A DNA stretch of 64,000 nt from Synechococcus sp. JA-3-3Ab (lineage in GTDB: Bacteria; Cyanobacteriota; Cyanobacteriia; Thermostichales; Thermostichaceae). Shown here in pieces: positions 39,045 to 43,002 of the stretch. The position numbers were made by a program, and so were the translations under genes. The stretch lies in NCBI RefSeq assembly GCF_000013205.1, contig NC_007775.1, positions 2,166,501-2,230,500 on the forward strand. Direction: 5' to 3'. A model generated the notes under the pieces. It saw only the letters and a program-made list of their open reading frames with translations. It was not told the DNA's origin and searched no databases. Each line of letters opens with the position of its first letter. Within the stretch, counting starts at the first letter, position 1.

Positions 39045-40115
39045 TCAATGGCTCAGAGCCAAGGTTTTCCCTGCTACGACCGCCGCCATCTCCTGCAACA
39101 GGTCTTCGGTCTCTTCCCAGCCAATGCAGCCGTCGGTAATGGAAACGCCGTACTGGAGCGGCGCCCCTTCCTGCCAGGTTTGCTTGCCCGGGTTGAGGTT
39201 GCTCTCCAGCATCAGCCCCATCAAGGCCCGCTGCCCCGCTTGGTACTGCTGTAGCACCGCCCGACAGACGGATCCCTGCCGGCGGTAGTCCTTCTGTGAG
39301 TTGTCGTGGGAGCAGTCCACCATCACCGAGCGCGGGATCCCTTGATCCTTCATCAGCAACGCCGCCCGCGCCACATCTTCCGGGCCGTAGTTGGTTCTGC
39401 CGCCGCCGCCGCGCAACACGATGTGCCGATCCGGGTTGCCGGTGGTTTTCACCAAGGCCGTCATGCCGTCTTGGCCAATGCCCAGAAAACTGTGGGGGTG
39501 GCTGGCAGACAAGATGGCGTTGAGGGCAATTTCCAGCCGCCCGTCGGTGCCGTTTTTGAAGCCCACGGGCATGGAGAGGCCGCTGGCCATTTCCCGGTGG
39601 GTCTGGCTTTCGATGGTTCGGGCGCCGATGGCCGCCCAGCTCACCAGGTCTGCGGTGTATTGAGGGGTCACCGGATCCAGCATCTCGGTGGCACAGGGCA
39701 GGCCCAGCTCGTTGATCTGCAGCAGGATGGAGCGGGCCAGTTGCAAGCCGGTGGCAATGTCGCAGGAGCCATCCAGGTGGGGATCGTTGATCAACCCCTT
39801 CCAGCCCACGGTGGTGCGCGGCTTCTCAAAATAGGTGCGCATCACGATCACCAGGTGCTCGCGGGTTCGGTCGGCCACCCGCTTGAGGCGGTGGGCGTAC
39901 TCCAAGGCCGCTTCCGGATCGTGGATGGAGCAGGGGCCGACGATCACCACCAGGCGATGGAGATCCCGTCCGTGGATGATGTCGCGAATGGCCTGCCGCG
40001 TGGAGAGCACCACTTGGGCTGCCGTTTCCGTCAGCGGCAGCTTGGCCTTGACAGCAGCAGGGGCAATCAAGGGAGTCACCTCTTGGATGTTGCAGTTGTC
40101 GGTTTGGGGGGGCAT
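39045..40115 (-). CDS. 3-deoxy-7-phosphoheptulonate synthase (DAHP synthase, type I)
   Basis: First enzyme of aromatic amino-acid synthesis; condenses PEP and erythrose 4-phosphate. About 356 residues. Family landmarks: VVIVGPCSIHDPEAALEYA, MRTYFEKPRTTVGWKGLIND (PEP/E4P binding), GFKNGTDG, HIVLRGGG, and VDCSHDNSQKD (metal His/Asp). The start at 40115 (MPPQTDN) has AAGGA seven bases upstream; ATGs at 40130 and 40175 are alternatives. The leader immediately upstream carries an aromatic-rich peptide and attenuator (see 40177-40315), indicating control by aminoacyl-tRNA supply. Confidence 0.95.
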   Translation of the reverse strand: MPPQTDNCNIQEVTPLIAPAAVKAKLPLTETAAQVVLSTRQAIRDIIHGRDLHRLVVIVGPCSIHDPEAALEYAHRLKRVADRTREHLVIVMRTYFEKPRTTVGWKGLINDPHLDGSCDIATGLQLARSILLQINELGLPCATEMLDPVTPQYTADLVSWAAIGARTIESQTHREMASGLSMPVGFKNGTDGRLEIALNAILSASHPHSFLGIGQDGMTALVKTTGNPDRHIVLRGGGGRTNYGPEDVARAALLMKDQGIPRSVMVDCSHDNSQKDYRRQGSVCRAVLQQYQAGQRALMGLMLESNLNPGKQTWQEGAPLQYGVSITDGCIGWEETEDLLQEMAAVVAGKTLALSH

Positions 40116-40176: not shown

Positions 40177-40206
40177 AAAAAAGCCCTGGCACTGGGCTCA
40201 GGGCTT
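40177..40206 (-). terminator. Attenuator terminator before DAHP synthase
   Basis: On the minus strand AAGCCCTG pairs with CAGGGCTT through a 10-base loop, then a run of six T. It sits just before the coding start, so it should stop transcription unless disrupted. Confidence 0.8.
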
Positions 40207-40276
40207 CAGGACTGACTCAGGTAAACCTAGGCTTTATAGTTTACGCGCCACCCTTCCGCCCTGGTCGCTGCCAGGG
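40181..40276 (-). promoter_or_regulatory. Four-segment transcription attenuator
   Basis: On the transcript: segment 1 CCCUGG (40271-40276, the Pro-Trp codons of the leader peptide), segment 2 CCAGGGC (40258-40264), segment 3 GCCCUG in AAGCCCUG (40199-40206), and segment 4 CAGGGCUU (40181-40188). 1:2, 2:3 and 3:4 can pair. A ribosome stalled on aromatic codons would hide segment 1, allow 2:3 and prevent the 3:4 terminator. This is the classical trp/phe logic. A further small hairpin, GTAAAC/GTTTAC, lies between segments 2 and 3. Structure by eye only. Confidence 0.7.
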
Positions 40277-40315
40277 AAAGGTAAAGTAGCCAAAAAAGGG
40301 AGCGCGCAAGATCAT
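40241..40315 (-). CDS. Aromatic-rich leader peptide of DAHP synthase
   Basis: 24 codons, too short for ordinary gene calls. It reads MILRAPFFGYFTFPWQ then RPGRKGGA, stop TAA. Phe, Tyr and Trp make up six of the ten residues from position 7 to 16 (FFGYFTFPWQ: F, F, Y, F, F, W). The peptide ends just before the antiterminator/terminator elements and shares its Pro-Trp codons with segment 1 of the attenuator. No strong Shine-Dalgarno is seen, only GAAG. The function, sensing Phe/Tyr/Trp tRNA charging, is inferred from classical attenuation. Confidence 0.75.
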   Translation of the reverse strand: MILRAPFFGYFTFPWQRPGRKGGA

Positions 40316-40350: not shown

Positions 40351-40356
40351 AGTATA
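40351..40356 (-). promoter_or_regulatory. Possible -10 of the DAHP synthase leader
   Basis: TATACT on the minus strand, about 36 bases upstream of the leader peptide. The -35 (GTTTCT/TTTCTT about 17 bases earlier) is poor. Confidence 0.4.
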
Positions 40357-40654: not shown

Positions 40655-42010
40655 TCAGAAGGATCCGGCCCGAACGGCAGCCGCTTCCTGGATCACCTCG
40701 TCTCCAGGCTGCAGCCCGGCGTGGATCTCCACCAGATCCCCATAGCGGGATCCCACCGCCACCGGCGTAAACAGCGGCTTGCCGTCCGCCAGCCGATACA
40801 CGCCCGTCAGGCCGAACTGTTCTACCAGGCTTGTCTGGGGCAGCAGCAGGGCTTGGCGGGTTTCTCCTGCCAACTTCAGACGGCCCAGCATGCCCGGCAT
40901 GGCTCCGGGGAGCGGAGGGATCTCCGCCTTGACTTCCACGGTTCTCGAGCTGGGATCGGCGCTGGGGATGATTTGGCGAATGGCTCCCTCCACGGTTTGG
41001 TTGAGGCTGTCGATGCTGATGGGCACCCCTTGTCCCACCCGGATCTGGCCGGCCAGCGATTCGGGCACAGCCACGGAAAACCGCAGCCGCTCGCTGCTTT
41101 CTAGCTCCACTATCGGCTGGCCCGGCCCCGCCAAAGCCCCTACCTCCACATACTTGCGGGTGACGACGCCGGCAAAGGGGGCAACCAGGGTTCCGTAGGC
41201 CAGGTTGGCTTGGGCTTGTGCCACCCCCGCCTGCGCCTGGGCCATGGCCGCCTGCACCTCAGGGATCCGGCCTTTGGCCTGGGCAAGCTGGGCCTGCGCT
41301 TGGGTCAATCCCTGTTCGGCCTGCTGGATCCCGGCCTCGAGCTGGGCCAGCCGGCCCAAGAGCACGGCTACCCGCGTATTGGCCTGATCCACCTGGGCTT
41401 GGGCCACGGCCCCTTCGGCGTGCAGCTTCTGCATGCGTTCTTGGTGCAAACGGGCCTCCTGCAGCTCCGCTTCCGCCTGCTGCTTCTGGGCTTGCACCTG
41501 GCGCAAGGCTTCTTCCGCTCCCCTCACCCCTGCCTGGGCGGCCAGAAGGCCTGCTTGGGCCTGCTGCAGTTGCGCCTCAGCCTGTTGCCGCTGGGCCTGG
41601 GCCTGTTGCTGGGCGGCCTGCACATCGCTGACATCCAGACGGGCAATCAGGGATCCGGCCGCCACCTGCTGCCCCTCCTGAACCGGCAGCTCCAGAACTC
41701 GGCCCACAATGCGGCTGCTGAGGGAGGTGCGCTCCACAGCCTCTAGGCTGCCCACCAGAATCCGCTCTTGGCCGATTTCCCGAGGCTTGACCTCCATCGT
41801 GGCCAACGGGGCGGCCTTGGCAGTTTCCAAGGACTCCGTCTCGCTGACGGGAAGCTCCGAAGCGGCTACCCCTGGACCGGGCCGGCTTTGGGATCCCAGC
41901 AGCCAGCCGCCCAGCCCCCCTAGCGAGAGGAACAGCAGCGCCCAGCCCAGGTGGCCCCAGCTCCAGCCGGAAAACCTTTGTTGGTGCAACCTGCCGACTT
42001 GAGTTTCCAT
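40655..42010 (-). CDS. Efflux RND periplasmic adaptor (membrane fusion protein)
   Basis: About 451 residues. An N-terminal membrane anchor (WALLFLSLGGLGGWLLG) is followed by a lipoyl/barrel-sandwich half. A very long Gln/Ala-rich coiled coil follows (QAAQQQAQAQRQQAEAQLQQ-type heptads, about residues 145-275). Then come the second lipoyl half (APFAGVVTRKYVEVGALAGP), a beta barrel and the membrane-proximal domain. HlyD/AcrA-like adaptors link inner membrane pumps to outer membrane channels. No pump gene lies next to it, so its partner must be elsewhere. ATG 42010 is preferred over TTG 42025. Confidence 0.9.
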   Translation of the reverse strand: METQVGRLHQQRFSGWSWGHLGWALLFLSLGGLGGWLLGSQSRPGPGVAASELPVSETESLETAKAAPLATMEVKPREIGQERILVGSLEAVERTSLSSRIVGRVLELPVQEGQQVAAGSLIARLDVSDVQAAQQQAQAQRQQAEAQLQQAQAGLLAAQAGVRGAEEALRQVQAQKQQAEAELQEARLHQERMQKLHAEGAVAQAQVDQANTRVAVLLGRLAQLEAGIQQAEQGLTQAQAQLAQAKGRIPEVQAAMAQAQAGVAQAQANLAYGTLVAPFAGVVTRKYVEVGALAGPGQPIVELESSERLRFSVAVPESLAGQIRVGQGVPISIDSLNQTVEGAIRQIIPSADPSSRTVEVKAEIPPLPGAMPGMLGRLKLAGETRQALLLPQTSLVEQFGLTGVYRLADGKPLFTPVAVGSRYGDLVEIHAGLQPGDEVIQEAAAVRAGSF

Positions 42011-42273
42011 AGTGCAAGTGTCCAAGGCGTAACTTGAGAGTGACGAGAGAAAGAGGCTAAGGAAAGACCAAATCTCCCAATGGCTTGGAGATGGGCTCTA
42101 TGAGAGCCCCACCCCCTGCAAACTGAGGCGCTCAAACCAAGGCACCGCCCACCCCCAGCGCATCTTGGCTAGGAAATACTGCTCAAAGGCGGACTTGAGC
42201 CAACTGACCCATGGCCCTTGCACGGCCAGAGCTATAGCTGCTCTTGCCTGTCTTCCGAAGCCGCCACCTACTG

Positions 42274-43002
42274 CTACTCGTGGCTGGGTCTAGGAGGGGA
42301 TCCCATCCTGGCAATCCAGTAGCCGCACTGGTGTTCTCCGTTCACCTGCCAGGTGAGGCGCTCTACCCGGCAGTCGGGCAGGGCGGCGGCAAACATCTCC
42401 AGCTCGTGGCCGCAGACGCTGGGAAAACGCTGGGCAATTTGGGCAATGGCGCAGTGGTGCTCCACCAATACGTATTGCTCGGCATACTGCTCAGCGCCTT
42501 CTGTTGCCCTGGCCGCAGCCAGGTGGTTGGGGTAGGGGTAGTACTCCGCCATGTAGCCTTCTGCCTGGCGCAACTGCACCAAGCGCTCCAGCCGCTTGGC
42601 CAGGGATCCGCATCCCATCTGGGCTTGGTACTCTTGGGCTTTGCGCTGCCACTGCTGCTGGAGCAGGGATCCCATCTGTTCGGATCCCAGGGTTTCGGCC
42701 AGCGTATTGAGCAGGCCCAGGGCAAACTCGTCGTAGCTTGTGGGGAATTGCGCTTCCCCTTGGGGGCTAAGCTGATAGAAGTGCTGGGGGCGGCCCAGGC
42801 CACTGGCTTGAGCGACGTGGTGGATCAGCCCCTCCGCCTCTAGATCCTTGAGGTGGCGGCGAATGGCTTGGGGAGAAATGCCCAAGTGCTCTGCCAGAGT
42901 CTGGGCGGTGGCCTGCCCCGCCTTGCGCAAATAGACTAGGATGGCCTGCTTGCTGGAAAGGGGCTGCGTGAACCGCCCGGTGATCTTGTGCGCGCTCTCC
43001 AC
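42274..43002 (-). CDS. sufR: SufR, iron-sulfur repressor of the suf operon
   Basis: 242 residues. Winged helix-turn-helix: ILVYLRKAGQATAQTLAEHL and ISPQAIRRHLKDLE. The C-terminal half holds the Cys residues of the [4Fe-4S] cluster: C in EHHCAIAQ, C in SVCGHELEM, C in LPDCRVERL and C in EHQCGYW. SufR represses sufBCDS under iron-sulfur-replete conditions. GTG 43002 is the start, with AGGAGGG upstream. The gene is divergent from sufB, as in other cyanobacteria. Confidence 0.95.
   Translation of the reverse strand: MESAHKITGRFTQPLSSKQAILVYLRKAGQATAQTLAEHLGISPQAIRRHLKDLEAEGLIHHVAQASGLGRPQHFYQLSPQGEAQFPTSYDEFALGLLNTLAETLGSEQMGSLLQQQWQRKAQEYQAQMGCGSLAKRLERLVQLRQAEGYMAEYYPYPNHLAAARATEGAEQYAEQYVLVEHHCAIAQIAQRFPSVCGHELEMFAAALPDCRVERLTWQVNGEHQCGYWIARMGSPPRPSHE

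Follow-up and report, generated by a model that had tools for sequence, protein, structure and literature searches.

A conserved aromatic leader-peptide element, very probably a ribosome-mediated attenuator, in front of the DAHP synthase gene of a family of heat-loving cyanobacteria

The stretch of DNA analysed here (64,000 nucleotides from Synechococcus sp. JA-3-3Ab, hereafter the window) carries a type I (aroFGH) DAHP synthase gene on its minus strand, at 39045..40115. The product was recognised as 3-deoxy-7-phosphoheptulonate synthase (TIGR00034, 491.1 bits against a cut-off of 173.2) and also matched PF00793. DAHP synthase opens the biosynthetic pathway leading to phenylalanine, tyrosine, and tryptophan. 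The gene probably begins not at its first in-frame ATG (40175) but at the ATG at 40115, which follows a conserved AAGGA; in one relative (G005), the reading frame opened by the counterpart of the 40175 ATG is interrupted by a stop codon. The genome, a single contig of 2,932,766 bp, contains no other PF00793 gene, and no PF01474 gene was found in it. With only this DAHP synthase found in the genome, a mixed aromatic sensor in front of it makes sense. Further upstream, a HlyD-type gene lies between a SufR-like regulator and the DAHP synthase gene (window 40655-42025 and 42274-43002), while in two relatives (G003 and G004) the SufR-like gene is found directly 5' of the leader described below. Another relative, G007, carries a second PF00793 gene (G007:C227:32303-33040, L161, 266.6 bits) that is absent from the other three genomes searched and is possibly another DAHP synthase or a KDO8P synthase.

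Upstream of the DAHP synthase gene, and on the same strand, an element extends from the ATG of a short leader ORF (40315) to the end of a T run (40177). The ORF (40241..40315 in the ORF list) encodes the 24-codon peptide MILRAPFFGYFTFPWQRPGRKGGA, whose core FFGYFTFPW has six aromatic residues in nine, and it lacks a strong Shine-Dalgarno sequence. Segment 1 (CCCUGG, 40271..40276) is the Pro-Trp codon pair itself, as had been predicted, and pairs with segment 2 (CCAGGGC, 40258..40264), which lies inside the ORF and can pair with segment 3 as well. Segment 3 is the nine-base run AGCCCUGAG (DNA AGCCCTGAG, 40197..40205) and segment 4, its second partner, is CCAGGGCUUUUUU (~40190-40180). Pattern scanning and folding identified 3:4 and the following U run as an intrinsic terminator (40177..40207, hairpin ~ -16 kcal/mol, TTTTTT at 40182-40177) that ends ~60 nt 5' of the likely start of the gene. 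The predicted 2:3 antiterminator is a compound helix which encloses an internal hairpin (GUAAAC...GUUUAC, 40221..40244), and this hairpin was predicted in all eight genomes compared below. The aromatic leader peptide and the four-segment set ending in a terminator before a DAHP synthase were thus all located on the minus strand, although one point of the layout is corrected here: the segments are present, but the stop codon (UAA, 40243-40241) lies just past segment 2 and not between segments 1 and 2. A fold of the plus strand of 40177-40315 was discarded since the feature is on the minus strand. An extended 1:2 helix (GCGCGC...GCGCGU) was predicted in several of the related genomes but not in all, and no role is claimed for it for that reason.

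A putative promoter was found ahead of the leader. The -10-like box TATACT (40351..40356, minus strand), aligned within the block GGGTATAnTnATCTCGTACAG, corresponds to TATAGT, TATATT, or TATAAT in five other members of the genus, and this conserved box sits roughly 33-41 nt 5' of the leader ATG across the genus, upstream and not downstream of the leader. Transcription would accordingly start at ~40344, ~29 nt ahead of the leader, and the terminated RNA would be ~168 nt long (165-175 nt).

Folding the 139 nt as a single RNA gave -51.5 kcal/mol (z = -1.83), and 8 of 200 shuffles were equally stable. The 1:2, 2:3, and 3:4 pairings foreseen in the original prediction are all possible, but the lone fold is unremarkable and the case rests on conservation. 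The combination of features is more than chance would give. A detector that looked for ORFs in which 6 or more of 10 residues are aromatic, with a terminator after the ORF, returned exactly one match in the window, which was this element, and none in random sequence totalling 1.28 Mb (20 Markov windows). Across other genomes, 525 kb in all, it returned eight matches, all resembling pheL leaders and located near aroF-type genes of enteric and vibrio-like bacteria. As the background matches were all pheL-like and random sequence gave none, the detector is quite specific.

Conservation was then assessed in eight genomes from three genera of one small family of heat-loving cyanobacteria (G000 to G007), six of which belong to one genus while G006 and G007 represent the other two. 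All eight have one DAHP synthase ortholog preceded by the leader, the segments, and the terminator, and start, stop, and aromatic core of the ORF are kept throughout. The leaders within the genus are MILRAPFFGYFTFPWQRPGRKGGA, MVWRASFFGYFTFPWQRPGRKGGA, MVWRASFFGYFSFPWQRPGQKGGA, MSLRAAHFGYFTFPWQCPGRMGGA, MSLRAAFFGYFTFPWHRPGRMGGA, and MSLRAAYFGYFTFPWQSPGQVGGA, and those of the other two genera MTVQVTVFFYFTYPWRESGLMGSVQAVN and VYVPAPLFFYFSSPWHLPGLRELHER; their cores read FFGYFTFPW, FFGYFSFPW, HFGYFTFPW, YFGYFTFPW, FFYFTYPW, and FFYFSSPW, with Phe replaced by Tyr or His and Thr by Ser. Segment 1 is invariant in 8/8, segment 2 varies across genera (CCAGGGC, TCAGGGC, or CCGGGGC) with pairing retained, and segment 3 is again invariant in 8/8, which is what a strand that has to pair with two partners should show. 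Each genome has a terminator hairpin of -13 to -18 kcal/mol followed by a T run. The internal antiterminator hairpin differs in sequence in G007 and G006 but retains its pairing, and the three genera share one plan for the antiterminator: an outer helix of the CAGGGC:GCCCUG type, then a middle helix that includes GGG, and at the apex a hairpin that remains paired even though its bases change from genus to genus. This does not amount to formal covariation, as there are only three lineages and an invariant segment 3 can give none. The peptide and pairing segments are, then, kept not only in close relatives, for which the original prediction had suggested a check, but also in two further genera.

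The gene upstream of the element varies (the end of a sufR-like gene in G003 and G004, HlyD here) while the leader is kept, so the leader goes with the DAHP synthase. This bears on one alternative, namely that a random aromatic ORF happens to lie beside the terminator of an upstream transcript. The modest z of the lone fold would be compatible with such an accident, but the retention of the element in 8/8 genomes across three genera despite changed neighbours, together with the empty result from random sequence, refutes it, and I give it practically no chance. A sequence-only model of the eight leaders (R1) scored 65-120 bits in all eight family genomes, whereas in 382 other cyanobacterial genomes its score never exceeded 18.2 bits and nothing comparable was found; the high scores of members arise partly by construction, which does not hold for the gap to the remaining genomes. 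At 22 cyanobacterial DAHP synthase loci outside the family, there were weak ORFs only and no leader with a terminator 5' of the gene. A single detector match, in L009, was rejected as it lies on the opposite strand and away from the 5' side of the gene. Within the family, pheA and trpE showed no convincing aromatic leader with a terminator.

Two parts of the leader ORF appear to be under different kinds of constraint. In the six genus members, pN was 0.053 and pS 0.249 for the FFGYFTFPW codons, against a pN of 0.124 and a pS of 0.122 for codons 16-24, which hold segment 2. The aromatic core thus looks to be kept for its amino acids, by purifying selection, and codons 16-24 for their bases; with small numbers and related genomes, these values are supportive rather than decisive. 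They also help to weigh two further explanations. The first is arrest by the nascent peptide (TnaC-like, PWxxPG), dependent on free Phe, Tyr, or Trp and controlling the same terminator. It would fit the invariant Pro-Trp pair and an ORF that extends 9-13 codons beyond the aromatic run, but the residues after PW vary (QRPGRKGGA, RESGLMGSVQAVN, HLPGLRELHER), swaps between F, Y, and H are tolerated in the core, and pN about equal to pS in codons 16-24 is what constraint on the RNA and not on the peptide would produce. The invariant CCCUGG is accounted for by 1:2 pairing, and arrest seems very improbable. The second explanation is that the leader ORF merely couples translation by re-initiation or sits in a 5' UTR, with the hairpin acting as an ordinary terminator or as an element controlled by a protein or ligand without ribosome sensing. 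A terminator hairpin with a U run is indeed present, and many short bacterial leader ORFs have been proposed to work by re-initiation (PMC4833913). Against this, the leader stop codon is ~125 nt away from the likely start of the gene with the terminator in between, the aromatic run is under selection at the protein level, and no Rfam family was matched at its gathering threshold (the best sub-threshold hit was Leu_leader, with 20.5 of 50 bits). I consider this explanation as improbable as peptide arrest.

Ribosome-mediated attenuation makes predictions about how the RNA folds with the ribosome at different codons. The RNA was folded with everything up to the leading edge of the ribosome removed, the edge being set to the first base of the A-site codon plus 13 (10-15 were tried too). 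In G000, the terminator had a probability of 0.00-0.06 with the A site on the core Phe or Tyr codons and of 0.95-0.97 with the ribosome at the stop codon; with the Trp codon in the A site it ranged from 0.05 to 0.97, varying with the assumed edge. A looser measure of segment 3 pairing gave 0.00-0.16 for the Phe and Tyr stalls versus 0.87 for the stop codon. This equilibrium switch was clearest in G000, G001, G003, and G007, and weaker in G002, G004, G005, and G006. In G002 and G005 it occurred at upstream aromatic codons and not at the last Phe, and in G004, G005, and G002 a ribosome placed on the codon just ahead of Pro-Trp left the terminator dominant at equilibrium. In these three, switching must therefore depend on kinetics or on aromatic codons further 5'. 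When the RNA was cut before segment 4, mimicking a polymerase that has only just completed segment 3, stalls on the core Phe and Tyr codons favoured 2:3 in 8/8 genomes (0.67-0.88).

E. coli pheL, used as a positive control, switched alike in the ribosome-position model. For E. coli trpL, the terminator stayed at ~0.9 at equilibrium even with the ribosome at the Trp codons, and the RNA-cut version gave a 2:3 probability of 0.67 at Trp versus 0.03-0.26 at the stop codon, which shows that equilibrium folding understates kinetic switches. When the stretch from the Trp codon to segment 3 was shuffled, the observed 2:3 pairing was reached in 0/200 shuffles for G007 and 3/200 for G006. The six genus members gave 28-78 of 200, so that their 2:3 pairing is not individually beyond shuffles and it is chiefly the two divergent genera that give statistical support.

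The same calculations bear on which amino acids are sensed. Under the assumed footprint, a ribosome with one of the later Phe or Tyr codons in its A site covers segment 1 completely or nearly so and leaves segment 2 exposed. When the A site holds the Trp codon, much of segment 2 is covered and 2:3 fades, from 0.54-0.65 at an edge of 11 to 0.41-0.56 at 13 and 0.11-0.44 at 15. To the extent that this footprint holds, Phe and Tyr are probably what is sensed, with the Trp codon having a chiefly structural role.

Taken together, an ORF of aromatic codons before a pathway gene, a terminator between the two, and a computed antiterminator that depends on ribosome position make it very probable that the element is a ribosome-mediated transcription attenuator controlling DAHP synthase. 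This was the mechanism originally predicted, and it is the best explanation. The ORF, the segments, the terminator, their conservation, the selection on the peptide, and the helices possible at each ribosome position were computed; the scheme given here adds to these an inferred promoter position, actual stalling and termination, and a direction of response. RNA polymerase would start ~29 nt before the leader, with a ribosome following. If charged tRNA-Phe or tRNA-Tyr were scarce, the ribosome would stall on the FFGYFTF codons and cover segment 1, leaving segment 2 free to pair with segment 3 in the compound antiterminator, and the DAHP synthase gene would be transcribed. With sufficient aromatic amino acids, the ribosome would reach the UAA and cover segment 2, 3:4 would pair, and transcription would end in the U run. 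If the leader were not translated at all, both 1:2 and 3:4 would form, and the gene would be off.

The four-segment ribosome-mediated logic of the element is that of E. coli trpL-trpE. That leader senses Trp only, whereas a stall at the Trp codon is here predicted to favour termination. E. coli pheL-pheA also has a Phe-rich leader with an aromatic run ending in TFP, a CCC codon bordering the first pairing segment, and alternative antiterminator and terminator structures with a like switch in the ribosome-position calculation. It differs in controlling pheA and not DAHP synthase and in responding to Phe only, and its ORF ends directly behind TFP; in the present leader the reading frame continues through Trp and nine further codons and contains segment 2. 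The likeness is one of layout, with no Rfam match above threshold. The sub-threshold match to Leu_leader (RF00512) is full-length and shares the order of leader ORF and terminator, but it is far below the cut-off of 50 bits, so the element is not a member, and the peptide is aromatic instead of leucine-rich. A predicted uORF with one or more Phe codons by a terminator has also been reported before a DAHP synthase gene, namely uORFC-13-1 upstream of Acholeplasma aroF (PMC8632094), but there the U run codes for at least one Phe, the occurrence is limited to Acholeplasma and environmental sequences in another phylum, and the case is predicted only.

In agreement with the original prediction, no earlier description of an attenuator for a cyanobacterial DAHP synthase was found in the open-access literature. 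According to a survey of leader genes from 2016, reliable data for attenuation in cyanobacteria are lacking (PMC4833913), and a survey of premature terminators remarks that, until its own Firmicutes cases, Proteobacteria and Actinobacteria were the only phyla with demonstrated leader-peptide systems (PMC2965389). The mechanism is known, while the leader family and the lineage are new, and judged by the open literature this is the first well-supported case in Cyanobacteria. A family-wide leader before the sole DAHP synthase suggests that attenuation works in cyanobacteria, and at the gate of the whole aromatic pathway. The element is compact and can be tested.

In a tree, the family's DAHP synthases grouped outside the main cyanobacterial clade, together with Nitrospirota and Binatota enzymes (100/100 support); they are 64-68% identical to the Nitrospirota and Binatota enzymes but only 51-57% to the enzymes of other cyanobacteria. 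On this phylogenetic evidence, the family ancestor probably obtained the gene by horizontal transfer. The Nitrospirota and Binatota relatives of the enzyme have no aromatic leader upstream, which makes it improbable that the leader came along with the gene from those lineages; the attenuator probably arose on the acquired gene in the family ancestor, or came from an unsampled donor. A bolder reading, which I put forward tentatively as a possibility rather than an expectation, is that a single leader that arose on a horizontally acquired DAHP synthase might tell shortages apart: a Phe or Tyr stall would open the gene, while a Trp stall, with the ribosome over segment 2, would keep it shut. Cyanobacteria would then have a first amino-acid attenuator accessible to experimental test. 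Elsewhere in the tree, the DAHP synthases of L021, L015, L058, L100, and L107 (Nostocales and Oscillatoriales among them) group with gammaproteobacterial enzymes and not with the main cyanobacterial clade, possibly reflecting a further transfer or an old paralogue.

Leaders of a related kind were found in Myxococcota. A Polyangiaceae MAG, found among the relatives of the enzyme, carries MASRRFFWFGYWRAETAATGSSL and a terminator before a DAHP synthase gene, and its own relatives have similar leaders and terminators at six orthologous loci and at two additional DAHP synthase genes. Leaders such as MFGRYFFWFSYWRPRERRPGPVY resemble the cyanobacterial ones in that leader and terminator precede one DAHP synthase paralogue, but they belong to another DAHP synthase lineage, have a Trp-rich core, and show a clear equilibrium switch in some cases only. 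Since the two sets sit on different DAHP synthase lineages they look convergent, and the parallel suggests that DAHP synthase recruited aromatic leaders more than once. Among Polyangiaceae-related Myxococcota, the loci L050 (2828-2900) / L162, L164-L169, L185, and L186 all show RYFFWFSYWRPRERRPG-like aromatic leaders with terminators before one DAHP synthase paralogue.
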